64,000 bases of DNA from contig PKEY01000070.1 of the NCBI GenBank assembly GCA_002919265.1, positions 1-64,000 on the forward strand, written 5' to 3'. The stretch is from Hyphomicrobiaceae bacterium (GTDB lineage Bacteria > Pseudomonadota > Alphaproteobacteria > Rhizobiales > Hyphomicrobiaceae). A model generated the notes under the pieces. It ran no database searches. It had not been told where the DNA came from and worked only from the letters and a program-made list of their open reading frames with translations. Of this stretch, positions 39,421 to 54,997 are shown in pieces; position 1 is the first letter of the stretch, and every line of letters begins with the position of its first letter. A program made the translations under genes and the position numbers.

Positions 39421-40767
39421 TTAGGCAGCCGCCCGAATTTCCTGATCTACCAGCGCCTTGAGAAGCTCCGCGTATTCGTCGACGAACGATACAAGCACGT
39501 TTCTGAGCGTCTGCCGGTGTGCATCCGTCATCGGCAAGGACTGGTAGAAGTCCCCTCGACTGGCAATCGCTACACCGTTGAGCAGCGCATACATATGGAA
39601 AAACTGCCCAACGCGCCGGCTCGTGGGCGTGACGTCTGCCGCCGTCCGAATTCCGTTCGGTGAAAGATGCATGGTGAACAGCGAGCCCTGGCCGGTGAAG
39701 CGCAGAGGCACCTTGCGCGCGACCATTTCATCGTTCAACCGAACACGGAAGGCTTCACACTCCACGAGGAATGCGTCGGCCCGCTCCGGCGTGAATACGC
39801 GCGTCAAGCCGGCGAGACCTGCCGCCATCGAACAGACATTGTTGTTGAAGGTGCCCGCGTGTCGGAAAGCGTCGGGGCGGTGCGGATCAAATCGGTCCAT
39901 GATGTCAGCCCGGCCACCGAATGCGCCGGAGGACAGCCCGCCTCCGAGATATTTCCCGAGGGTCGTCAGATCCGGCGTCAATCCGATCTGCCCCTGAATG
40001 CCGCCCGCTCCGCAACGTGAGGTCTTTACCTCATCGAAAATGAGAAGAGCACCAACCTTCGCCGTCTCCTCACGCAGCATTTCAAGGAAGCTTCTTTCCG
40101 CCGGAATGTTACCGGCCGCTCCGAGGATCGGCTCGACGATGACGCAGGCGAGATCGTCCTTGTGCGCCTGGATCAGGCTGCGCGTCGCCTCATAATCGTT
40201 GTAAGGCGCGATGACGTAGTCGAAAGGAATGTTGATTGGATTGCCGCCCTTGGAAAAAACCAGCACGCCACCGTGATAGGCGCCGTCGAATACGAGGATC
40301 TTGGACCGCCCAGTAACCTGGCGCGCGGTTACAAGCGCCAGAATATTGGCCTCGGTTCCCGAATTACAAAAACGTAGCCGTTCCATGCTCGGGAAGCGCG
40401 CCTGAACGGCCTCCGCAAGCCGGGCCTCGAGAACATTCGGCGCTGCCAAAACGATGCCGCACTCGAGCGCCTCGATAATCGCCTGCTTGATAATCGGATC
40501 GGAATGCCCGTAAAGGCCGGCGGAAAATTCGCCCACAAAGTCGATGTAGGTGTGCCCATCGAGGTCCCGCACCTCGGCGCCCTGGCCCGAAACCATCGTG
40601 AGCGGGAACGGCTCATAGAAGAGAACGGAGCGCGTGTTACCTCCGGGCAAGGCTCGCGCTGCCTCCTGAGAGGCCTTGAGGCTCAGTGGATTACGTTTTG
40701 CGAATTCCTGTTTGAGCCCCGAGAACGCTTTCTCGAGCTGCTCCAACCGATGATTGCTGAGGGTCAT
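39421..40767 (-). CDS. Class III aminotransferase, beta-amino-acid type
   Basis: A 448-residue PLP enzyme of the GSA/class III family. Motifs: GGNTRSVLFYEPFPLT, FCNSGTEANILAL, FDGAYHGG, IFDEVKTSR and TLGKYLGGG, which carries the PLP lysine. From memory, the GGNTRSVLFY, GTEAN and GTFNNNV segments resemble beta-phenylalanine/beta-amino-acid transaminases from Variovorax and Mesorhizobium more than glutamate-1-semialdehyde mutase. It is the last gene of the hyuA operon, 37 bases after CoA transferase subunit B. It likely turns a beta-amino acid into a beta-keto acid. Alternative: another omega- or GSA-type transaminase. Confidence 0.75.
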   Translation of the reverse strand: MTLSNHRLEQLEKAFSGLKQEFAKRNPLSLKASQEAARALPGGNTRSVLFYEPFPLTMVSGQGAEVRDLDGHTYIDFVGEFSAGLYGHSDPIIKQAIIEALECGIVLAAPNVLEARLAEAVQARFPSMERLRFCNSGTEANILALVTARQVTGRSKILVFDGAYHGGVLVFSKGGNPINIPFDYVIAPYNDYEATRSLIQAHKDDLACVIVEPILGAAGNIPAERSFLEMLREETAKVGALLIFDEVKTSRCGAGGIQGQIGLTPDLTTLGKYLGGGLSSGAFGGRADIMDRFDPHRPDAFRHAGTFNNNVCSMAAGLAGLTRVFTPERADAFLVECEAFRVRLNDEMVARKVPLRFTGQGSLFTMHLSPNGIRTAADVTPTSRRVGQFFHMYALLNGVAIASRGDFYQSLPMTDAHRQTLRNVLVSFVDEYAELLKALVDQEIRAAA

Positions 40768-40804
40768 TGCGCTCCTGGGAGACCTTCGAAATTGGCCGGG
40801 CAGA

Positions 40805-41494
40805 CTAGCCGAGTGCTGGAGACTCTATCGTTTTCAGATTGGGGTCGATGTCCAGCGGCCCTTCTGTCGCTGCACGGACCGTCTCGACGTCCAAACCCGC
40901 AGCAATCTCGCGCATGATGAAGCGCCCGTCAGTCACGTCGAACACGCCGTAGTTGGTGAAGACGCGGGAAACAACGCCTGCGCCCGTGAGCGGATAGGTG
41001 CACCGCTTCAGCAGTTTCGGCTCGCCCTTCCGCGTCGTGTGCTCGGTTATGATGAAAACCTGCTTTACGCCCGCGACGAGATCCATCGCGCCACCCACTG
41101 CGGGCACGCCACCTTCGCCCGTCGACCAGTTCGCCAAGTCACCGTTGGCCGCGACCTGCAAGGCACCCAGGATCGAAATGTCGAGATGCCCGCCGCGGAT
41201 CATGGCGAAGCTGTCAGCGTGATGGAAGAAGCAGGCGCCGGGCAGCAGCGTGATCGGCTTCTTACCGGCGTTGATCAGCTCGGGATCTTCCTCGCCGGGC
41301 TTGGGCGGTGGCCCGAAGCCCAGTACGCCGTTCTCGGAGTGATAGATAACCTCGCGCCCCTCGGGCACGAAACGCGCCACCATCTCAGGAATGCCGATGC
41401 CAAGGTTCACATGGGCGCCATCGGGAATGTCCTGCGCAGCCCGCCACGCCATCGCCTCCCGGGAGAGGCCCAACGCTTCGGTTTTCGTGCTCAT
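40805..41494 (-). CDS. 3-oxoacid-type CoA transferase subunit B
   Basis: A 229-residue beta subunit of the family I CoA transferases, with the catalytic glutamate in SENGVLGFGPPP (about residue 47) and GGHLDISILGALQV. It transfers CoA from succinyl- or acetyl-CoA to a 3-oxoacid. It overlaps subunit A by four bases. In this operon it would activate the keto acid produced by the downstream aminotransferase. Confidence 0.9.
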   Translation of the reverse strand: MSTKTEALGLSREAMAWRAAQDIPDGAHVNLGIGIPEMVARFVPEGREVIYHSENGVLGFGPPPKPGEEDPELINAGKKPITLLPGACFFHHADSFAMIRGGHLDISILGALQVAANGDLANWSTGEGGVPAVGGAMDLVAGVKQVFIITEHTTRKGEPKLLKRCTYPLTGAGVVSRVFTNYGVFDVTDGRFIMREIAAGLDVETVRAATEGPLDIDPNLKTIESPALG

Positions 41495-42201
41495 GGATAG
41501 CGCACTCCCTCCGCCACCAGCTTCGACTCCTGAGCCGGGTTCGGAACGTGAACGACACGGTCGACGAAGATGCCGGGGGTCACGACCACTTCAGGGTCGA
41601 TTTCGCCGGCGGCAACGAAATGACGGACCTGCACGATCGTCGTCTTCGCCGCCATGCACATGATCGGCCCAAAATTCCGTGCCGTCTTGTTGTAGACCAG
41701 ATTGCCGAGCCGATCTCCGCGTTCGGCTTTCACCAGCGCAAAATCAGCGGTCAGCCCATATTCCAGAACGTGCGGCCGCCCGTTGAACTCCCGTACCTCC
41801 TTGCCCTCCGCCAGCGGCGTGCCGGCCGCAGTCGGCGTATAGAATGCCGGGATGCCGGCGCCGCCGGCCCGAATGCGCTCCGCGAGCGTCCCCTGCGGCA
41901 CCAGCTCGAGCTCGATGCGCCCCTCCCTGTAGAGTTGCTGGAAGACCTCGGAGTTCGAGGAGCGTGGGTAAGAGCAGATCACCTTGCGGACCCGCCCGGC
42001 GGCGATCAGCGCGGCAAGGCCAACGAAGCCGTTTCCAGCGTTGTTATTGATGACGACGAGGTCGCGAGCGCCCTGGTCGATGAGAGCATGAATGAGCTCG
42101 ATCGGGCTTCCCGCCTCCCCGAAGCCGCTGATCATCACGGTTGAGCCGTCCCGAATATCGGCTACAGCCTCAGCAACGCTCGCGACTTGCTTATTGATCA
42201 T
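41491..42201 (-). CDS. 3-oxoacid/3-oxoadipate-type CoA transferase subunit A
   Basis: A 236-residue alpha subunit with the glycine-rich MISGFGEAGSPIELIHALID start, INNNAGNGFVGLAALI and TPAGT-like segment TPTAAGTPLAEGKE. The sequence is close in style to PcaI of 3-oxoadipate metabolism, but no other pca genes are present. It forms the active heteromer with the downstream subunit B. Confidence 0.9.
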   Translation of the reverse strand: MINKQVASVAEAVADIRDGSTVMISGFGEAGSPIELIHALIDQGARDLVVINNNAGNGFVGLAALIAAGRVRKVICSYPRSSNSEVFQQLYREGRIELELVPQGTLAERIRAGGAGIPAFYTPTAAGTPLAEGKEVREFNGRPHVLEYGLTADFALVKAERGDRLGNLVYNKTARNFGPIMCMAAKTTIVQVRHFVAAGEIDPEVVVTPGIFVDRVVHVPNPAQESKLVAEGVRYP

Positions 42202-42297
42202 GATGGGCTTGCCCTAACCACTGCGATGCCCTGCTTCTTCCGATATCGAAGCTCGCCGGCTCCTGCAACGTATGCTTTCCCGAGAACTGCATAGCTC

Positions 42298-43965
42298 TCA
42301 AGTCTGATCCGCAGCCGGCGGGTTCGACGGATCGGGATAGTATCCCCGAATCCGGTCGCGCTCGATGAGCACAGGATCGCGCTCTGCTGGGTCTCCATAG
42401 CCGCCACCGCCAGGCGTCTCGACCTCGATCCAGTCGCCCGGCTTCAGCACGAAGCCCTCGCCCTTCGAGATATGCTCGGGCTGCACGATTTTGCCGCCCT
42501 GGCAAATCCTGATGACGTTCGGTGCTCCCGGTTTGCCGCCGAGTATACCCGGCGGCCCGAACCGCCCATGCTCCATAAGGAAAGAGGCTTTGCCCTCACC
42601 CCGCAGGATACGCGCCCGATAGCGGACACCGAAACCGCCGCGATACTTCCCGGCGCCACCAGAGCCTTCGCGCAGTGAGAATTCGTCGAAGATTATCGGA
42701 TAACGCTGCTCGAGAATTTCAACCGGCTGCGATTTCGAAATGCCGATCGTGGAGCAGCCGTTACTGATGCCGTCACCCCTCCACCAACCGCCGTAACCGC
42801 CGCCGGAGAAGTAATACATGATGTAATGGCGCTTCTCTTCTGGATCATAGCCGCCGATGCTGATGTTTCCGCTCGTGCCGGCGGGCGCAGCGAACAATCG
42901 ATCCGGAATGGCCTCGGCGAGCGCGAGGAACACGGCTTCCATGATCCGCTGCGAAACCTCGGCAGCGCAGCCGGCCACGGGGCGCGGATATTCGGCGTAC
43001 AGGAAGGTTCCACGCGGCTCTTTCACGTGTATTGGCGCGAAGCAACCCGAATTCATCGGCACATCCGGGAAGATGTGCTTCATCGCGCCGTACACGGCCG
43101 AAAGCGTCGTCGCCCAGACGGAATTGAGCGGCCCGGCGCATGGGGGGCTCGACTTCGAAAAGTCGAAGGTGATGTCCGAACCTTTGACGGTCACCTCAAG
43201 ACGAACCTCGAGCGGCTCATTCACCACGCCGTCGCTATCCAGATAGGCAACGCTAGAATATGTGCCGTCCGGAATAGTCTCGATATGTGCGCGCATCATT
43301 TTCTCGGAACGGCGGCGCAACTCCGCGATGGCCTCCTCAACTGTTTCCTTTCCGTAGCGGTCGAGCAATGCCGTCAACCGCCGTGCGCCGGCTTCCAACG
43401 CGCCGAGATGGGCCTTGATGTCGCCAATCCGCTCGTCTGCTACGCGGATGTTGGCGAGCACAAGGCTCAAAATCTCCTTGTCGATTTCCCCGCGCCGGCA
43501 AAGCTTAACCGGCGGAATGCGCAGGCCTTCCTGATGAATTTCCGTTGCCGTACTGTTGAAACCGCCAGGCACCATGCCGCCCGTGTCCGGCCAGTGTCCT
43601 GTGTTCGAGAGATAGCACCAGTGCTCACCACGATAATAAAACGGCCGCACCATTTTCACGTCCATGAGGTGCGTGCCGCCGAAATAAGGATCGTTGACAA
43701 GGATGACGTCGCCGTCGTCCAGGTCATTGCGCGCCTGGATGACCGAGCGCGTCGTCTCCTGCATGACACCGATGAAAATCGGCAGGGCGAGCTCGCCCTG
43801 GGCAATCATCGAGCCATCTTCGAGCGCGTAAATGCCGTTTGAACGGTCAAATGCTTCCGAAATGACGGGAGAAAATGCCGTCTTCTCATGGACGAGGTCC
43901 ATTTCGGTGCAGACCTGCTGCAGGCCCTTTTCGATGACGGTCAGAAGTACGGGATCCATTGCCAT
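42298..43965 (-). CDS. hyuB: Hydantoinase/oxoprolinase family subunit B (HyuB)
   Basis: A 555-residue HyuB-type protein (DPVLLTVIEKGLQQVCTEMD, then ALPIFIGVMQ and DLDDGDVILVNDPYFGGTHL, and a C-terminal GYGGWWRGDG, VETPGGGGYGDP). Together with HyuA it forms ATP-dependent amidohydrolases that open 5-oxoproline, N-methylhydantoin or lactam rings, or related carboxylases. It lies 19 bases after hyuA. Confidence 0.9.
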   Translation of the reverse strand: MAMDPVLLTVIEKGLQQVCTEMDLVHEKTAFSPVISEAFDRSNGIYALEDGSMIAQGELALPIFIGVMQETTRSVIQARNDLDDGDVILVNDPYFGGTHLMDVKMVRPFYYRGEHWCYLSNTGHWPDTGGMVPGGFNSTATEIHQEGLRIPPVKLCRRGEIDKEILSLVLANIRVADERIGDIKAHLGALEAGARRLTALLDRYGKETVEEAIAELRRRSEKMMRAHIETIPDGTYSSVAYLDSDGVVNEPLEVRLEVTVKGSDITFDFSKSSPPCAGPLNSVWATTLSAVYGAMKHIFPDVPMNSGCFAPIHVKEPRGTFLYAEYPRPVAGCAAEVSQRIMEAVFLALAEAIPDRLFAAPAGTSGNISIGGYDPEEKRHYIMYYFSGGGYGGWWRGDGISNGCSTIGISKSQPVEILEQRYPIIFDEFSLREGSGGAGKYRGGFGVRYRARILRGEGKASFLMEHGRFGPPGILGGKPGAPNVIRICQGGKIVQPEHISKGEGFVLKPGDWIEVETPGGGGYGDPAERDPVLIERDRIRGYYPDPSNPPAADQT

Positions 43966-43984
43966 TTTCGTTTCCCTTCAGCCC

Positions 43985-46036
43985 TCAACCTGCAGCGTTG
44001 AAGCCGTTCACCTCGATGAGGATATTGCCAAAGTCGTCGACGCGGCAGCGCGCGCCGGGGTCGACGACCAGCGTTGCATCCATCTGTTCGACGATGGCAG
44101 GCCCCTCGAACTGCGCTCCCGCCGGGAGAAGATCACGGCGATAGATGTCAGTTTCAACCCACTCGCCGTTGAAATAGACCTTGCGCCTTCCAGTACGCGC
44201 CTCGTTTACGTCGGTCGTGACTTGTGGGCGGAACAACGACAGATCGATACGCTCACGCACTCCAATGACGGTCGTACGGACGTTCACCAGCATAGGTGAC
44301 ATCTCTGCGAGCGAAATTCCAAACCTGTCGATGTAATGCTGGGCAAATCGCTCACCGACCTTTTGCGGATCAAAGCCTGGGCTTTCCACGGGAAGGCGGA
44401 TGACGTGCGATTGCCCGCGGTAAAGAAGGTCCGCCTCGTGCCGAGTGACGATTTCCTTTACCTCGACTTTCTCGCGGGCAAGAAGCGCACGCCCCTCTTC
44501 AACCTGCCGCGCGAAAATACTGTCGATCTCCTTCGGATCGAGCGAGGCGAGCGGCAAGTTCACCGTCTGCACGAAATCGTGCCGCACGTCGGCCAGGATG
44601 CAGCCGAGAGCAGAGGTCAATCCCGGGAAACGAGGTACTAGCACGTGGGGAATGCCCAGCTCGCGCGCAATCGCCACCGCATGCAAAGGTCCAGCGCCAC
44701 CGAAAGGCATCAGCGCAAAATCACGCGGATTATGCCCTTTTTCAATGGAAATCAGACGGATTGCACCGGCGAGCTCATTTACGGCAATGTCGAGAATTGC
44801 GGCTGCGCTCGCGACGACATCAAGGCCGAGATGCCGACCGATTTTTTCCTCGAGAATGGACGCAATTTTGTCGAGCGGTGCCGGCGCGTCCGAGCCGGTG
44901 ATAGACGTCGGGTTGATGCGCCCTAGCAAAAGATTGGCATCCGTAATCGTTGGCTCTGTGCCCCCGCGACCATAGCCGATCGGTCCCGGAAATGAGCCAG
45001 CGCTCTCCGGCCCGACGCGCAACATGCCTGCGGCGTCGATGCGCGCAATGCTGCCACCGCCCGCACCGACCGTGCTCATGTCGATCATCGGGATGCGGAG
45101 GGGCACACCGTAGGCGAGATCCTTTTCAGCGGTGATAACCGGCTCTCCGTTGACGATCACGGCTACGTCGTAGCTGGTCCCGCCCATGTCGCCAGTGATG
45201 ATATTGGGGAAGCCAGCCGCCTTGGCGATTGCAGAGGCCGCCAGCACACCGCCTGCCGGCCCCGACATCACGGTATGCACCGCGTGCTCGCCAACCACGG
45301 AGGCAGCCATCATGCCGCCGTTGGCCTGCATCACCAGCAATTCTTTGCGGAAACCCTTCTTGGCGAGCTCGTCGGCGACGCGCTCGATATAGCGCGCCAC
45401 AATCGGCCGAATAGCGCCGTGAATGGCGGCCGTGGAGCCACGCTCAAATTCCCGCATTTCACGGATGATTTCATGGCCGGCAACGACATTCTTGTTCGGC
45501 CACAGACTGCGGACAATTTCAGCGCAACGCTTTTCGTGGGTGTCGTTTGCGTAAGAGTGCAGGAAATGAATGACGACGGACTCGACATCCATTTCCAGCA
45601 GCTTTTTCACCGCCGCACGGACGTCATCTTCGTTCAGCGGCTCTACGACCCGTCCGGCGGCATCCATACGCTCGCGCACCTCGAGACGCAGCTCGCGCGG
45701 AATGAGCGCCTCGAAGGTACCCGAAAGACCGTAAGCGTAGGGCCGCGTGCGACGGCCAAGTTCAAGTACGTCCCGAAAGCCGCGAGTGGTAATCAGACCG
45801 CAACGCGCGCCCTTGCGCTCGAGAACGGCGTTAGTACCTGCCGTCGTGCCGTGAACCAGCCAGTCGATGGCCTCGAAATCCACTCCGAGCTCGGCCAGCC
45901 CCTGCATGAAGCCGCGGGCGCGATCGTCGACGGTTGTCGGAACCTTGGCGACCCGGAATTCGCGGCGCTCCGTGTCGATCATGAGAAAGTCGGTAAAGGT
46001 TCCTCCGACATCAACGCCGATGCTGATGTTGCTCAC
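43985..46036 (-). CDS. hyuA: Hydantoinase/oxoprolinase family subunit A (HyuA)
   Basis: A 683-residue HyuA-type ATP-binding subunit with the ASKHA-like start ISIGVDVGGTFTDFLMID, VHGTTAGTNAVLERKG, GDMGGTSYDVAVI and FGGAGPLHAVAIARELGI. It phosphorylates or activates the amide in the ring substrate for hydrolysis with HyuB. The GTG at 46036 has GGAGG upstream; the ORF-track ATG is upstream of it without a site. It is the first gene of the hyuAB-CoA transferase-aminotransferase operon and is divergent from an IclR regulator. Confidence 0.9.
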   Translation of the reverse strand: MSNISIGVDVGGTFTDFLMIDTERREFRVAKVPTTVDDRARGFMQGLAELGVDFEAIDWLVHGTTAGTNAVLERKGARCGLITTRGFRDVLELGRRTRPYAYGLSGTFEALIPRELRLEVRERMDAAGRVVEPLNEDDVRAAVKKLLEMDVESVVIHFLHSYANDTHEKRCAEIVRSLWPNKNVVAGHEIIREMREFERGSTAAIHGAIRPIVARYIERVADELAKKGFRKELLVMQANGGMMAASVVGEHAVHTVMSGPAGGVLAASAIAKAAGFPNIITGDMGGTSYDVAVIVNGEPVITAEKDLAYGVPLRIPMIDMSTVGAGGGSIARIDAAGMLRVGPESAGSFPGPIGYGRGGTEPTITDANLLLGRINPTSITGSDAPAPLDKIASILEEKIGRHLGLDVVASAAAILDIAVNELAGAIRLISIEKGHNPRDFALMPFGGAGPLHAVAIARELGIPHVLVPRFPGLTSALGCILADVRHDFVQTVNLPLASLDPKEIDSIFARQVEEGRALLAREKVEVKEIVTRHEADLLYRGQSHVIRLPVESPGFDPQKVGERFAQHYIDRFGISLAEMSPMLVNVRTTVIGVRERIDLSLFRPQVTTDVNEARTGRRKVYFNGEWVETDIYRRDLLPAGAQFEGPAIVEQMDATLVVDPGARCRVDDFGNILIEVNGFNAAG

Positions 46037-46084
46037 TCTCGCCTCCGAGTCCGCGACTTCCGAATAGCATTGCATCAAAGACTT

Positions 46085-46125
46085 GAGTTTCGATTATTGA
46101 AACTCTATTCTGATTTTCGATAATA
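46085..46125. promoter_or_regulatory. Candidate IclR operator between hyuA and iclR
   Basis: A dyad GAGTTTC-N7-GAAACTC (46085-46105) overlaps TTTCGATTATT, and a second copy of this motif, TTTCGATAATA, follows at 46115-46125, 27 bases on. The region is the only AT-rich stretch between the divergent genes. A similar motif occurs upstream of the TRAP binding-protein gene. IclR control is inferred. Confidence 0.55.
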
Positions 46126-46188
46126 GACGCAGAGCCGGTCTGTTTGTCAACGGACTCGGGCGTCCTATGTCGTTGGGCGAAAGGACAA

Positions 46189-46974
46189 ATGCCGAAAAAA
46201 GATCTGCAGGACGACGAGCGCAAAAGCCCGTTTGAACGCTATTTGAGCATCATCGAGATTGTGGCGGCGGCGCACGACGGGCTGACGCTGACGGATATCG
46301 CTAAGATTGCGGATCTGCCCAAACCGACCGTTCACCGGCTGACGCGTGTCTTGCTCGATTCCGGCGCGCTTGTCGCCGAAGATCGGCGACAGAAGCAATT
46401 CCGCATAGGCCCGCGCATTTGGCGCGTGCTTTACCTCGGGTTTGAACCCGACAGCCTCGTTCGCTATGCGCAGATGGCCTGCGACGCCGCGGCCAGTCGC
46501 TTGAAAGAGACCTGCTACATTGTACGTTTGGGGCGCACCGATGTGCGCACTGTCGCACGCGCGACGCCGGACCAGGGCTATCGTCTGCATGTCTATCCGG
46601 GGTCCGACCTGCCGATTCACGCCGCCGCTTCTGCGAAAGCAATTATTGCTTTTCAGCCTGAAAAAGAGGTGATGCGTTACATTCGCGAGCCATTGCCGCG
46701 GTTTACACCATATACGAACACCGATGTTTCCGTGTTTCTCGCCGAACTGAAAAAGACGCGGAAACGCGGCTACGCGATTTGCGACCGCGAGATCGACGAA
46801 CACGTCATGGCCTACGCGGTGCCGGTCCATCTGCCGAACGCGGGCGTGCTGTTCAGCGTGGGTGTGACAGGTCCCTGTAGCCGACTGCTGCAACACCCCG
46901 TGGCGTTCTACATTGACGGCCTCAAGGAAGCAGCCGACCAGTTCGCGCGAGCCCTGCAGACCACTCAAAGGTGA
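46189..46974 (+). CDS. IclR-family transcriptional regulator
   Basis: A 261-residue protein with an N-terminal winged helix (LTLTDIAKIADLPKPTVHRLTR) and an IclR effector domain (GYRLHVYPGSDLPIHAAASAKA). The ATG at 46189 is preferred, with AAGGA upstream. Its divergent position next to hyuA and convergence with the TRAP genes suggest it controls both, usually as a repressor relieved by a pathway metabolite. Confidence 0.9.
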   Translation: MPKKDLQDDERKSPFERYLSIIEIVAAAHDGLTLTDIAKIADLPKPTVHRLTRVLLDSGALVAEDRRQKQFRIGPRIWRVLYLGFEPDSLVRYAQMACDAAASRLKETCYIVRLGRTDVRTVARATPDQGYRLHVYPGSDLPIHAAASAKAIIAFQPEKEVMRYIREPLPRFTPYTNTDVSVFLAELKKTRKRGYAICDREIDEHVMAYAVPVHLPNAGVLFSVGVTGPCSRLLQHPVAFYIDGLKEAADQFARALQTTQR

Positions 46975-46977
46975 GTT

Positions 46978-48285
46978 CTAAAACAGTGCTTTCGGCAGAA
47001 CCAGGACGATCTCGGGGAACGCGATACAAATACCGATCGCCACGATCATCAGCAAAATAAACGGCGTGACCGACTTATAGATGTCCCCGAGTGAAATATT
47101 GGGAGGAACGACACCCTTCAGATAAAAAAGGTTGTATCCAAACGGCGGTGTCAGAAAACCTATTTCCATATTGATAATAAACAGGATGCCGAACCAGACT
47201 GGATCGAAGCCCAATTTCAGAATAATTGGAACGAATACCGGGACAGTGATCATAATAATCCCAACTGTATCCAGCACCATCCCGAGCAGCAGCAAAATGA
47301 CCATCATCCCCACGAGAATGACGTAGCGGTTCACCTCGAGGCCAAGAACCATCCCCTCGATCAGACGCGCAGCTCCCATCGCCGTGTAGAAGGTCGACAA
47401 GGCGGACGCGCCAATGATGATCCAGAAGATGAGACAACTGAGGAGAAGCGTCTCATCACAGGCCTCACGGACCACCTTCCAGTTGAGCTTGCGTCGCACG
47501 CCGGCAGCGATAATCGCGCCCAGGGCGCCCACTGCAGCGGCCTCGGAAACACTGGCAAACCCGGTGAGCATGGAGCCCAGCACACCAATGACAAGCAGCA
47601 CCGGAAGGATGAGCCCTTTGCTCGCGACGAGCTTTTCGCGCCAGGTAAAGCGCTCAACCGCTGAGCCACCCACCATTTCCGGCTGAAGCAGGCCGCGTAC
47701 ATAAATGTAGATGGCAAAAAGAACAGCGATGAGCAGGCCCGGGAGAATACCGCCAGCATAAAGCTTGCCGATCGAGGTGCCGGCGACCAACCCGTAAATG
47801 ATCATCGTGACGCTCGGCGGAATAAGAATGCCAAGCGAACCGCCCGCAGCGATACAACCGAGCGCAATCCCCTTGTGGTAATTCCGAGCAAGCATTGCGG
47901 GGAGCGCCAGAAGCCCCATGGAAATGGTCGCCGCTCCCGAAATACCGGCCATGGCAGCGAAAATCGTGCAAATGGCGACCGTTCCAATGGCCAACCCACC
48001 GCGCACACCGCTGAAGAAGCGGTACATAGCCTCATACAGATCGTCCGCGATCTGCGAACGCTGCAGCATAGCTGCCATAAAGATGAACAGCGGAATACCC
48101 AGATACTCGAAGCTCGATGCGCTCGAGAAAGCCTTGATCGGTAGCATCGACAGCGCATTCGGGCTCCAAAATCCGTAGATCATCCCGACGGTGAGCCCCC
48201 CGAGCGCGATGGCGATCGGTGCCCCGATCGCCAGGCAGAGAAACATGCTGCCGAATAGGAGAGCGGTAACGAACACTGGGTCCAT
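46978..48285 (-). CDS. TRAP transporter large permease (DctM type)
   Basis: A 435-residue polytopic protein with roughly twelve helices, the DctM family ion-translocating subunit (FLCLAIGAPIAIALGGL at the start, GSLGILIPPSVTMIIYG in the middle). It imports an organic anion with sodium or proton symport. Its stop is three bases from the convergent iclR stop, and it starts three bases after the small permease. Confidence 0.93.
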   Translation of the reverse strand: MDPVFVTALLFGSMFLCLAIGAPIAIALGGLTVGMIYGFWSPNALSMLPIKAFSSASSFEYLGIPLFIFMAAMLQRSQIADDLYEAMYRFFSGVRGGLAIGTVAICTIFAAMAGISGAATISMGLLALPAMLARNYHKGIALGCIAAGGSLGILIPPSVTMIIYGLVAGTSIGKLYAGGILPGLLIAVLFAIYIYVRGLLQPEMVGGSAVERFTWREKLVASKGLILPVLLVIGVLGSMLTGFASVSEAAAVGALGAIIAAGVRRKLNWKVVREACDETLLLSCLIFWIIIGASALSTFYTAMGAARLIEGMVLGLEVNRYVILVGMMVILLLLGMVLDTVGIIMITVPVFVPIILKLGFDPVWFGILFIINMEIGFLTPPFGYNLFYLKGVVPPNISLGDIYKSVTPFILLMIVAIGICIAFPEIVLVLPKALF

Positions 48286-48288
48286 GTC

Positions 48289-48795
48289 TTAGTCCGCGCT
48301 GCGAAGGCCGTTCTGCACCAGCTTGAGGATGTGTGACAACCAAGCGAGCGATAGCAGAACTACGCCGATCGGGAGGAGCGACTTGGCAACAAATACCGGA
48401 GCCTGCCATGCTCCGGTCGCGGACACTTCGTTCATCATGTAGGACTGCCACGCAAAGCGCGTGCCGAACCACAGAAGCGTGCCGGCAAACAGAACGAATA
48501 GAAGAGAGCTGATTGTCAGGTCGACGACCGCTTTGGCGCGCGGTGGCAAACGCGTGAAAAGAATGTCGACGCGGACGAACTGGCCGCGCTGCAACGTCCA
48601 CGCGCCACCAAGGAACACATAGGCGGCCAATAGCCATCCACTCAGGTCGTAAACCCAACCCCACGACATGCCGAAAAACGTTCTCGTAATCATTTCGAGA
48701 ACGATCAGCCCAGTCATGAGGAGGGTAAGCAAGGAGGCGGCTTTGCCAATCGTTTCAACTAGACGGTCGATCCAGCGGATCAAAAACTCAAGCAA
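48289..48795 (-). CDS. TRAP transporter small permease (DctQ type)
   Basis: A 168-residue protein with four hydrophobic helices of the DctQ family (GKAASLLTLLMTGLIVLEMITR, then GAWTLQRGQFVRVDIL). The TTG at 48795 is preferred because GAGGAGGGGG sits directly upstream; the ORF-track start is an earlier TTG that includes this site in the coding region. It pairs with the large permease. Confidence 0.88.
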   Translation of the reverse strand: MLEFLIRWIDRLVETIGKAASLLTLLMTGLIVLEMITRTFFGMSWGWVYDLSGWLLAAYVFLGGAWTLQRGQFVRVDILFTRLPPRAKAVVDLTISSLLFVLFAGTLLWFGTRFAWQSYMMNEVSATGAWQAPVFVAKSLLPIGVVLLSLAWLSHILKLVQNGLRSAD

Positions 48796-48885
48796 TGCCC
48801 CCTCCTCTGGCAATGTCAACTCTCGCGAGGATGAGAATACGAAGCAGCTCCGGAGAACTTGGCCGAAGCTGCTCTTGCGCTAGCC

Positions 48886-49908
48886 TTAGCGCCCCAACTC
48901 GGCGAGGAACTTCTTCAAGAGCTCGACACCTCTCGCGGCCATTTGGTCCTCGTTTGCATAGGCCTCCCAAAGCTCGCGAGCTGCGACCTCCATTTTGACC
49001 CACTCCTCCTCGGGGATAACGGAAATCTGCACACCCGCTGCCTGCATTTCGCGCATCGCCTTCGCGTCTGCCATTGCGCTAAGCGCAATATAATCGAACG
49101 AGGAAGCAACGGCCGCTTCGTTCAGAATAGCCTTGATATCGTCAGGCAGCTGGTTCCAGGCCGCCATGTTGACGGCAAAGAAGTTGTTCGGCACCGGCAT
49201 CGGCGACGGCTGCACGTAGTACTTGGCAACCTCGTGGTAGGAATTGTTCTTGTTCCCAGCCGGGCTCGCCCAACGCGCAGCATCGATCGCACCAGTTGCC
49301 AAGCCGGTATAGATATCGCCGCCGCCCATGAACACCGGCGTGGCGCCCATCTTCTCATACCACTTCGCCTCGAGCCCGAAGGAGCGGATCTTCAGACCTT
49401 TGAAATCCTCGGCCGAACGGATCGGCTTTTTCGAGACGATATCCCACGGCGGAGACAGCTGCGGACCGAGATAGAAAACGCCATGCTTGGCATACGCCTC
49501 ACGGACGAGGTCGAGGAAGCCGAATTTGTAGAAGAAGTTGTAGCGTTCAATCGGCGTGCGCAGCGATCCTGGGACGCCATTCTCGAGGTTGGCGATAGGC
49601 CCGATCTTTCCAGCGAAATAACCACCGGTCAGAACGCCCATCTCAACCATACCGGAGCCGACAGCCTCCAGGCCTTCCTGTACCGGGAAAAGCGCGCCTA
49701 CGGGGAAAACCTGAAACTTGATCCGGCCGCCTGACATCTCCTCGGCCAGCTTCACGAACTTCTCTTCGAGCGCGATGTAGCCGGGTTCGCCCGGATTTAA
49801 GTTGCTCTGAATTCGCCAATTGAAATCGGCAGCCTGAGCGGCGCCAACAGCCGCAATGGCCATTACCCCCGACGCAATTACGCTCGCCACTCCCCTCAGC
49901 AATCGCAT
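48886..49908 (-). CDS. TRAP transporter periplasmic solute-binding protein (DctP type)
   Basis: A 340-residue protein with a signal peptide (MRLLRGVASVIASGVMAIAAVGAAQA) and DctP-family segments (FEEK-like EEKFVKLAEEMSGGRIKFQVFPVGALF, shown here in part; DFKGLKIRSFGLEAK). It binds an organic acid for the TRAP importer. The ATG at 49908 is followed directly by the signal peptide; the 58-codon ORF-track extension has no support. First gene of the dctPQM-like operon. Confidence 0.92.
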   Translation of the reverse strand: MRLLRGVASVIASGVMAIAAVGAAQAADFNWRIQSNLNPGEPGYIALEEKFVKLAEEMSGGRIKFQVFPVGALFPVQEGLEAVGSGMVEMGVLTGGYFAGKIGPIANLENGVPGSLRTPIERYNFFYKFGFLDLVREAYAKHGVFYLGPQLSPPWDIVSKKPIRSAEDFKGLKIRSFGLEAKWYEKMGATPVFMGGGDIYTGLATGAIDAARWASPAGNKNNSYHEVAKYYVQPSPMPVPNNFFAVNMAAWNQLPDDIKAILNEAAVASSFDYIALSAMADAKAMREMQAAGVQISVIPEEEWVKMEVAARELWEAYANEDQMAARGVELLKKFLAELGR

Positions 49909-50249
49909 AGGCACACCTTTCCTCGACAAAGACACCCCCAAATAAGGGCCAACTTCCGGCGAATACCGCACACAGCGATGCGGCTCTCCAAGAAGCTCCC
50001 AAGGCTGTGATGGAAGTTTCGTTTTTCGATACTTGTTTTCTGTTCCTGAAACTCTGTCACGCTGCAAACAGGGTGTCAACGGTCATACATACAGCACTCA
50101 TGACCAAGCATTGATCGTCATAACCTTATAGTGGAAGGCCAATTTCTCTGCCCCGACCAATAAATCGACCAGCGGCGATGTCTGTGCAGACGATCCCGCC
50201 TCTTCCCTGGGCGAGCTTCTCAAGCTCAAAAAATTGAAGGGGAATCGGG
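49909..50249. promoter_or_regulatory. TRAP operon promoter region with shared motif
   Basis: This 341-base gap holds no gene. At 50024-50034 it contains TTTCGATACTT, closely matching the two motifs between hyuA and iclR, and flanking half-sites AGTTTC (50015-50020) and GAAACTC (50048-50054) in the same orientation as the hyuA dyad. It is the likely promoter/operator of the TRAP genes. The tlpA stop lies at its right edge. Confidence 0.5.
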
Positions 50250-53659: not shown

Positions 53660-54997
53660 TTATCGATACAAGCCATGCCGCGCTCCCAAGAGCCCCTCCG
53701 GCCGCCAGATCAGCAGTGCGGCCAACAGGGTGTAGATAGCCAAATCACGATATTCGATCGGAAAAAGGATCGACCAGACCATCTCGGCTCCGCCGATGAG
53801 GATGGCACCGAGAAGCGCGCCAGGGATTGATCCGATCCCGCCTGCGATAGCGGCGATCAGCGCCTTGAGGCCGAAAACAATTCCGCCGGCAAATCCAACA
53901 CCTCCGTAATAGAACGTGACGATGGTGCCCGCGAGGCCGGCCAATCCGCATGCGAGCACAAAGGTGGTCATGAGGAGGCCTCGAAAGTTTACGCCCAAGA
54001 GCGCGGCGGCGATGGGGTCGTCGGCACAGGCCCGCCAGCTGCGGCCGTACCGCGTCCACTTCATCATTGCGAGCAACCCTAACGCCACGAAAACGGCGAA
54101 TGCGCTAACCGAGATTCCAATCGGCGTAACGGTGACGACGAAGCCTTCACTCGCTGCAATGGCCGTCGGATTGTTGAAGAACGGCTCCATCCACCGCAAG
54201 GCTGAGCCCTGGGACAAGCGCATATACTCCTGCAGCGCCATAGCGAGGCCAACCGTGGCGATCAGTACTTGCTGGCCAGACGCGCGATGGAGGGGCTCGA
54301 AGATGAAGCGACTTGCGACATAACCGTGCGTCCCCGCTGCGAAGAGCCCGAGCGCGAGGCTCACGGCAAGCACGTCCGGCCAGAAAGTCAGCGCGCCGGC
54401 AAGTGGAACTCCGAGCAGAGCTGCATAACCACCCAGCGCCGCGAATTCCCCGAACGCCAGGTTGATCCTGCCGATAAGTCCGTACACAAGGGCGTAGGCT
54501 GGCGCGAGAACGGCGTAGATACCGATAAGCGGCAAGGCGGAGACGACGTGCTGGAGAACGAACGCTAGCGGTTGCGAGATTTGGGGTACGTAGCCGAGTT
54601 GGAGATACGGTGCCGGATCGGCCGCTGCCGATTCCTGCGAGCCCAGCCAGAACAGCTTCAGGATGGCGAGGCGAACTTCGCTGAGCTCTTTGCCATCACT
54701 CCAGGCCGCAACCAGCCGGTCATTCGTATCAAAAAGCACTGTTCCAAACCGGCAAAGTAGAGTGCGCGTTCGCTGATGACCGGAAGCGGTACGCACTGCA
54801 TAGCGGACCTCCACCCCACCACCAGGGGCCTTGGTCGTCGACTGGACTTGGAAGCTGCTCTCGGGCGGATTGATCGCCGGAATCAACATCCGGCAAATTC
54901 GGGCTTCGTGCGCGTCGGGCAAGCCGCTGCACCCTCCCAGCACCGTGAGCACCAGTGCCGCAACAACAATCCGAAACTCATCAGGCCAGCGCGCCAA
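53660..54997 (-). CDS. LivH-like ABC permease with lipoprotein-like N-terminal domain
   Basis: A 445-residue protein. The C-terminal ~300 residues are a branched-chain amino acid-type permease (LVYGLIGRINLAFGEFAALGGYAAL; IGSIPGALLGAILIGGAEM). The N-terminal ~130 residues are different: a signal-like helix with a lipobox-like LGGC near residue 22, then a beta-rich segment. The partner genes livM, livF, livG and a binding protein are absent nearby. It lies between hemB and bpt. Whether the extension is periplasmic or lipid-anchored is unknown. This may be a known conserved variant in the order, but I could not check. Confidence 0.75.
   Translation of the reverse strand: MARWPDEFRIVVAALVLTVLGGCSGLPDAHEARICRMLIPAINPPESSFQVQSTTKAPGGGVEVRYAVRTASGHQRTRTLLCRFGTVLFDTNDRLVAAWSDGKELSEVRLAILKLFWLGSQESAAADPAPYLQLGYVPQISQPLAFVLQHVVSALPLIGIYAVLAPAYALVYGLIGRINLAFGEFAALGGYAALLGVPLAGALTFWPDVLAVSLALGLFAAGTHGYVASRFIFEPLHRASGQQVLIATVGLAMALQEYMRLSQGSALRWMEPFFNNPTAIAASEGFVVTVTPIGISVSAFAVFVALGLLAMMKWTRYGRSWRACADDPIAAALLGVNFRGLLMTTFVLACGLAGLAGTIVTFYYGGVGFAGGIVFGLKALIAAIAGGIGSIPGALLGAILIGGAEMVWSILFPIEYRDLAIYTLLAALLIWRPEGLLGARHGLYR

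Follow-up and report, generated by a model that had tools for sequence, protein, structure and literature searches.

A TRAP- and IclR-linked HyuAB-aminotransferase cluster in a Hyphomicrobiaceae bacterium: a possible route from a carboxylated cyclic amide into the beta-ketoadipate pathway

In the caprolactam pathway of Pseudomonas jessenii, the CapAB caprolactamase is followed by an omega-aminotransferase and a 6-oxohexanoate dehydrogenase (PMC6061476, PMC8453981). Beta-alanine aside, little is known of how beta-amino acids are degraded (PMC6150868). Here we describe a gene cluster with a similar beginning and a different continuation in a 64,000-nucleotide stretch of DNA (the window; positions 1 to 64,000 of contig PKEY01000070.1, assembly GCA_002919265.1) from a Hyphomicrobiaceae bacterium. 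As for caprolactam, a lactamase of the HyuAB family, here a predicted one and likewise ATP-dependent, is combined with a class III aminotransferase, and the catalytic motifs and metal tetrad are common to both. However, the caprolactam pathway runs through an omega-amino acid whose aldehyde product is oxidised, whereas the cluster in the window encodes a beta-transaminase and a PcaIJ-type coenzyme A (CoA) transferase, without an aldehyde dehydrogenase. 5-Oxoprolinase and N-methylhydantoinase belong to the same HyuAB family, for which ATP dependence is expected, but the similarity is at the family level only and the gene context differs. As for the beta-ketoadipate pathway (pcaIJF), what is shared is the PcaI-like CoA transferase, together with a PcaF in the genome. 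That pathway starts from an aromatic ring, whereas entry here would be from a beta-amino acid, which is not described in the open-licence papers searched.

We tentatively propose, with just under even confidence, that the following genes include an inducible catabolic operon channelling a carboxylated cyclic amide, probably a beta-amino acid lactam, into the beta-ketoadipate pathway.

39421-40767, minus strand: aminotransferase gene (Pfam Aminotran_3)
40805-41494, minus strand: ctB, 3-oxoacid CoA-transferase subunit B, PcaJ-like (TIGR02428, 300.4 bits; cut-off 243.55)
41491-42201, minus strand: ctA, 3-oxoacid CoA-transferase subunit A, PcaI-like (TIGR02429, 360.6 bits; cut-off 128.5)
42298-43965, minus strand: hyuB, metal-site subunit (Pfam Hydantoinase_B, 549.7 bits)
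43985-46078, minus strand: hyuA, ATP-dependent subunit of a hydantoinase/oxoprolinase-type amidohydrolase (Pfam Hydantoinase_A), starting at TTG 46078 or ATG 46075
46189 (ATG) to 46974, plus strand: iclR regulator gene (Pfam IclR_C and HTH_IclR)
46978-48285, minus strand: dctM, large permease of a tripartite ATP-independent periplasmic (TRAP) importer (Pfam DctM, 273.6 bits; NCBIfam dctM above cut-off)
48289-48819, minus strand: dctQ, TRAP small permease (Pfam DctQ, 93.5 bits)
48886-49908, minus strand: dctP, TRAP solute-binding protein, DctP family 7 (Pfam DctP, 153.6 bits)

A sequence-only reading of the window had described five co-directional genes for HyuA, HyuB, CoA transferase A and B and a class III aminotransferase, with a TRAP importer and an IclR regulator next to them. 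This layout is confirmed (catabolic genes at 39421-46078, dctPQM at 46978-49908), and the Pfam gathering scores are exceeded for Hydantoinase_A, Hydantoinase_B, both CoA_trans domains, Aminotran_3, DctP, DctQ, DctM and IclR. The gaps along hyuA-hyuB-ctA-ctB-aminotransferase amount to 19, 96, -4 and 37 bases, ctA and ctB overlapping by 4 bases, so the five genes have an operon-like arrangement. The iclR gene sits between the TRAP genes and hyuA, divergent from the latter.

Six other genomes contain the set DctPQM-IclR-HyuAB-aminotransferase, in alphaproteobacteria with unchanged order and strands, which argues against a chance neighbourhood and against the possibility that the gene order is conserved nowhere. 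Genome counts refer to samples of 298 genomes of the order and 385 of the class; several loci are contigs of metagenome-assembled genomes (MAGs), and loci L036 and L068 are from the same organism. DctP orthologues of these clusters are 60-76% identical, and IclR orthologues, at the same place, 41-57%. In the HyuB tree, the window protein falls in a seven-member clade (support 100/99), all members of which have TRAP and IclR genes adjoining and an aminotransferase. This conserved core does not include the CoA transferase.

The aminotransferase is a beta-transaminase rather than a glutamate-1-semialdehyde (GSA) mutase, judging from its sequence and predicted model. Among structures of the Protein Data Bank (PDB), it scores 450 bits with MesAT and 425 bits with VpAT, both beta-phenylalanine aminotransferases, and 210 bits with the best GSA mutase. 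Its model, of moderate quality (mean predicted local distance difference test, pLDDT, 75.8), retrieves MesAT or VpAT structures at all Foldseek ranks from 1 to 12 (best 2yku and 4ao9), with large root-mean-square deviations of 6-8 angstrom. The resemblance to beta-amino-acid transaminases first noticed from motifs is thereby upheld, and the protein does not cluster with GSA mutases. Two residues to which beta-selectivity and the placing of the substrate carboxylate are ascribed in the VpAT/MesAT group (PMC9850050), Arg41 and a supporting Glu75, are kept in the alignment. The likeness to VpAT stands for the group and the best structural matches, but it does not extend to the pocket. At the positions of VpAT Met243 and Phe400, the enzyme carries Lys248 and Asp406 (own numbering), as do the 26 other members of its clade, instead of the beta-phenylalanine type Met243 with Phe or Met400. 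The Lys/Asp pair was absent outside this clade in our comparison: in VpAT, MesAT and their relatives, residue 243 is Met (or Gln) and residue 400 is Phe, Met, Leu or Tyr. The 27 Lys/Asp sequences used for the tree form one separate clade with a support of 100, which we call KD. Position 243 of VpAT corresponds to the DEVM-motif Met whose mutation (M248I) is found in the gabaculine-resistant GSA mutase (3fq8), and it is thus very likely located in the active site. The Lys/Asp pair may bind an acidic side chain, or else the two residues may form a salt bridge.

KD-type aminotransferases are found in three contexts, the first of which, with TRAP, IclR and HyuAB, comprises the window, Afifella pfennigii, two further genomes, Sneathiella litorea and S. 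chinensis. The second is that of MAGs from Gammaproteobacteria, for the most part Woeseiaceae and Xanthomonadales, and of two planctomycete MAGs. There, a gene for a KamA-like radical S-adenosylmethionine protein is divergent from an RpiR regulator gene followed by CtA, CtB, a PcaF-type thiolase and the aminotransferase (L055-L078, for example L057:4994-12466). The one thiolase scored reaches 656.6 bits with the NCBIfam pcaF equivalog model, above the cut-off of 597. The KamA-like protein (484 residues) had no match in a Pfam search and gave weak matches, at 68-88 bits far below the cut-offs, to several 2,3-aminomutase models. It aligns an Arg with Asp293 of lysine 2,3-aminomutase (2a5h), the lysine-binding residue, and an acidic amino acid may be the substrate of what would then be a new 2,3-aminomutase. 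We make no claim on its fold, as the AlphaFold model has a mean pLDDT of 41 and is unusable. The KamA-like module is absent from the genome of the window, where a search for an aminomutase gave no more than a remote member of the KamA family, scoring 275 bits with the family model and 33.8 bits with the KamA-like protein of Woeseiaceae. In the third context, the KD-type aminotransferase is found with M20 carbamoylases (L035, L072, L082). One such locus (L035:4177-11405) also encodes a nitrilase-like protein, a 50% relative of the second class III aminotransferase described below and a hydantoin-5-propionate-amidohydrolase-like protein (493.5 bits against a cut-off of 600). We dropped the identification of its iron-dependent alcohol dehydrogenase as a maleylacetate reductase, as Pfam and NCBIfam gave only the generic iron alcohol dehydrogenase. 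HyuAB, the KamA-like protein and the carbamoylase could each be a first enzyme able to supply a beta-amino acid.

By sequence, HyuAB is hydrolase-like, nearer to caprolactamase and N-methylhydantoinase than to the acetophenone (Apc) and acetone carboxylases. Among NCBIfam models, HyuA scores 526.8 bits with CapA, 348.7 with ApcC and 201.1 with ApcA, all below cut-off (HyuB reaches 322.9 bits with CapB; the CapAB equivalog cut-off is 1000 bits), and among PDB entries 446 bits with N-methylhydantoinase and 277 bits with acetone carboxylase. With these scores and two subunits only, HyuAB does not fall in the acetone/acetophenone carboxylase clades. The HyuA motifs DVGGTFTDF, DMGGT and SFPGP match the phosphate and adenosine motifs of CapA, described as DAGGTFTDF, DMGGT and GxxPGP, and HyuA has Asp at the position where Asp302 of CapA is contrasted with Lys281 of the carboxylase (PMC8453981). 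HyuB conserves the metal tetrad of CapB (Asp41, His99, Asp102, His124). From these features, we infer an ATP-dependent ring opening.

The next relatives of the window HyuB include those of L136, where an aminotransferase is accompanied by a beta-keto acid cleavage enzyme (BKACE), and of L132, with TRAP genes. In L136 (885-7855), HyuAB, a beta-transaminase-like aminotransferase closest to Sphaerobacter 6k8h and the BKACE are encoded in a row, and a beta-keto acid appears to be the end point of this HyuAB route. A plasmid of Rhizobium sp. CB3060 (L181:6161-14079) encodes a BKACE, a beta-aminotransferase, CoA transferase A and B, a thiolase and a Glu/Leu/Phe/Val dehydrogenase. HyuB relatives at 59-63% identity, in a clade separate from that of the window protein, occur with 6-hydroxynicotinate reductase (L143-L147, L178, L179), in some cases with a nicotinate-dehydrogenase-type molybdoenzyme and an AA_synth (PF06684) gene. 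From their context, these HyuAB proteins are candidates for an ATP-dependent tetrahydro-6-oxonicotinate (THON) hydrolase in aerobic nicotinate breakdown, a THON route of nicotinate breakdown having been described in alphaproteobacteria (PMC3511419).

The CoA transferase is PcaIJ-like, its sequence being closer to those of pcaIJF operons than to other CtA types. CtA is 68-69% identical to its counterparts in rhizobial IclR-pcaIJF operons and 77% to a Tistrella plasmid copy. Identity drops to 47-49% for the second copies of CtA type that related genomes carry. In the genome of the window (94.8% complete), we found a single CtA of this type, PcaF on contig C9 (690 bits, cut-off 597) and PcaH and PcaG on contig C34. 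The best hit there for PcaD (3-oxoadipate enol-lactonase), at 227.2 bits, is below its cut-off of 255.85. CtAB is thus the only 3-oxoadipate CoA-transferase candidate found, which supports 3-oxoadipate as its substrate and also a role in aromatic breakdown, weighed below. As PcaHG are present, we rejected the argument that PcaF must serve the operon for lack of an aromatic pathway. CtAB is found beside a KD-type aminotransferase in the window, in Sneathiella and in the gammaproteobacterial and planctomycete loci. On the Tistrella mobilis plasmid pTM2 (L174:3599-11391), which carries the nearest plasmid CtA, the gene is a few genes away from a DUF1338 protein, an aldehyde dehydrogenase and a pyridoxal-phosphate aminotransferase, a neighbourhood perhaps devoted to lysine catabolism.

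In the proposed pathway, the TRAP system would import the carboxylated cyclic amide, HyuA would spend ATP to activate the amide, and HyuB would hydrolyse it at its metal site to a beta-amino acid. The KD-type aminotransferase would convert the latter to a 3-oxo acid, an unstable compound that the PcaIJ-type CoA transferase would trap as a CoA ester, for the PcaF-type thiolase encoded elsewhere in the genome to split. The general chain from cyclic amide to beta-amino acid, 3-oxo acid and CoA ester appears rather likely to us. It is the chain of activities put forward by the sequence-only reading, of which the families, the gene order and the PcaF or BKACE partners of related aminotransferases hold, whereas the position of the CoA transferase outside the conserved core does not fit. 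The Lys/Asp clade and the PcaI-like CoA transferase point to 3-oxoadipate, and the route thus probably joins the beta-ketoadipate pathway. That the intermediates are specifically 3-aminoadipate and 3-oxoadipate is a proposal that we make with more reserve. Our best guess for the lactam, less secure again, is 5-oxopyrrolidine-2-acetate, which would yield 3-aminoadipate, 3-oxoadipate, 3-oxoadipyl-CoA and finally succinyl-CoA and acetyl-CoA.

The operon might be regulated by IclR binding between iclR and hyuA, where a candidate operator is present:

46085-46105, hyuA-iclR intergenic region: perfect palindrome GAGTTTC-N7-GAAACTC, candidate IclR operator
50014-50054, upstream of dctP: two degenerate copies of the palindrome, with 3 mismatches each

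Sneathiella litorea has the near-identical GTTTCAATAATCGAAA at the matching place before hyuA, and S. chinensis has a close copy; the palindrome was not found in the other core clusters. Over the whole window, degenerate matches number 5 for 2.9 expected, which is weak by itself. The best NCBIfam model for IclR is PcaR/PcaU/PobR, at 110.8 bits and below the cut-off of 284.75. Attempts to name the TRAP ligand by Foldseek or sequence failed, the best solute-binding-protein match of DctP being a lactate-binding protein at 155 bits. Elsewhere in the window (53660-54997), a LivH-type permease open reading frame has a long N-terminal lipoprotein-like extension, which may reflect a wrong start or a real fusion.

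Several observations weigh against the proposed route. CtAB is present in three of the seven core clusters (the window and the two Sneathiella species) and missing from the other four, and PcaF is encoded outside the cluster. Five of the seven have a second class III aminotransferase for which the scheme has no need, a PRK07483-like protein (654.7 bits) encoded directly after hyuB (L070:7225-8565, with equivalents in L036, L037, L038 and L091). The Rhizobium Q54 cluster has a different aminotransferase (36%), and in the aminotransferase tree the window enzyme is not grouped with other HyuAB-linked ones. The HyuB pocket residues differ from those of CapB and are nearly those of the relatives linked to 6-hydroxynicotinate reductase, which leaves room for a six-membered lactam as the substrate of HyuAB. 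Finally, 5-oxopyrrolidine-2-acetate was not found in the open-licence papers searched, and 3-aminoadipate hardly at all.

The HyuB pocket lends itself to a variant of reductive nicotinate breakdown, in which HyuAB would open a six-membered 3-carboxylate lactam (THON or its saturated form, 6-oxopiperidine-3-carboxylate) to 2-(aminomethyl)glutarate, from which an aminotransferase would then form 2-formylglutarate. Relatives of about 60% identity with a reductase and, for several, a molybdoenzyme alongside, the THON route of alphaproteobacteria (PMC3511419) and a possible job for the second aminotransferase are all in line with it. We nevertheless consider it unlikely, as clusters of the window type have neither reductase nor molybdoenzyme, their HyuB differs in clade and neighbours, the aminotransferase is related to beta3-amino-acid transaminases, and a PcaI-like CoA transferase would have no role for 2-formylglutarate. 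On paper, the N-C-C-carboxylate common to THON and 5-oxopyrrolidine-2-acetate would reconcile both HyuB contexts. Alternatively, CtAB might be the housekeeping pcaIJ of the protocatechuate pathway, sharing the locus by convenience, and HyuAB and the aminotransferase would form a shorter pathway, with a keto acid that CtAB does not activate. PcaHG and PcaF elsewhere in the genome, the single CtA and the four clusters without CtAB fit such a role. It is made distinctly unlikely by the position of CtAB, which is directly upstream of the aminotransferase in the window and Sneathiella and separated from it only by PcaF in the gammaproteobacterial and planctomycete loci, three separate arrangements in all.

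A further alternative takes after the Pseudomonas beta-lysine route, reportedly worked out by Barker and colleagues. Transamination, CoA transfer and thiolysis would release a 4-aminobutyryl unit that cyclises to 2-pyrrolidinone, to be opened by HyuAB, with 4-aminobutyrate left to the second aminotransferase. The order of activities is the same (aminotransferase, CoA transferase, thiolase), a KamA-like protein stands beside a related cassette, and five clusters have a class III aminotransferase directly after hyuB. However, the thiolase and the CoA transferase appear to be specific to 3-oxoadipate, Asp293 is replaced by Arg in the KamA-like protein, whose scores are far below every aminomutase cut-off, and the window cluster has neither this protein nor the second aminotransferase, so we regard this alternative as very unlikely. 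It is extremely improbable that HyuAB is an acetophenone-type ketone carboxylase re-carboxylating the ketone that arises by decarboxylation of an aromatic beta-keto acid, with an aromatic beta-amino acid as substrate. The superfamily is the same, and transamination of beta-phenylalanine does yield acetophenone (PMC6150868), but the carboxylase scores are well below the hydrolase scores, the operon encodes only two subunits, HyuA has Asp in place of the carboxylase Lys281, and the aminotransferase pocket is not of the beta-phenylalanine type.

Returning to the cyclic amide route, all enzyme families involved are known, whereas their combination looks new. We found no published description of it among open-licence papers; the only hit that brought a beta-transaminase, a hydantoinase and a CoA transferase together was the paper on the structure of acetophenone carboxylase. 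A broader possibility, which we rate as somewhat unlikely, is that of an undescribed route for acidic beta-amino acids, in which HyuAB acting on a lactam, a new KamA-like aminomutase acting on an alpha-amino acid such as 2-aminoadipate, or a carbamoylase acting on a ureido compound would feed a single dedicated aminotransferase clade and join the beta-ketoadipate pathway at 3-oxoadipate. If this is true, the KamA-like version would represent a new route of lysine degradation through 2-aminoadipate.

The conserved cassette and the sharp active-site signature of its aminotransferase provide named, testable candidate enzymes for the degradation of beta-amino acids. If 3-oxoadipate is indeed the product, HyuAB and 'glutamate-1-semialdehyde-like' aminotransferase genes of this type could be annotated properly, and the beta-ketoadipate pathway would gain a non-aromatic entry from amino acids.

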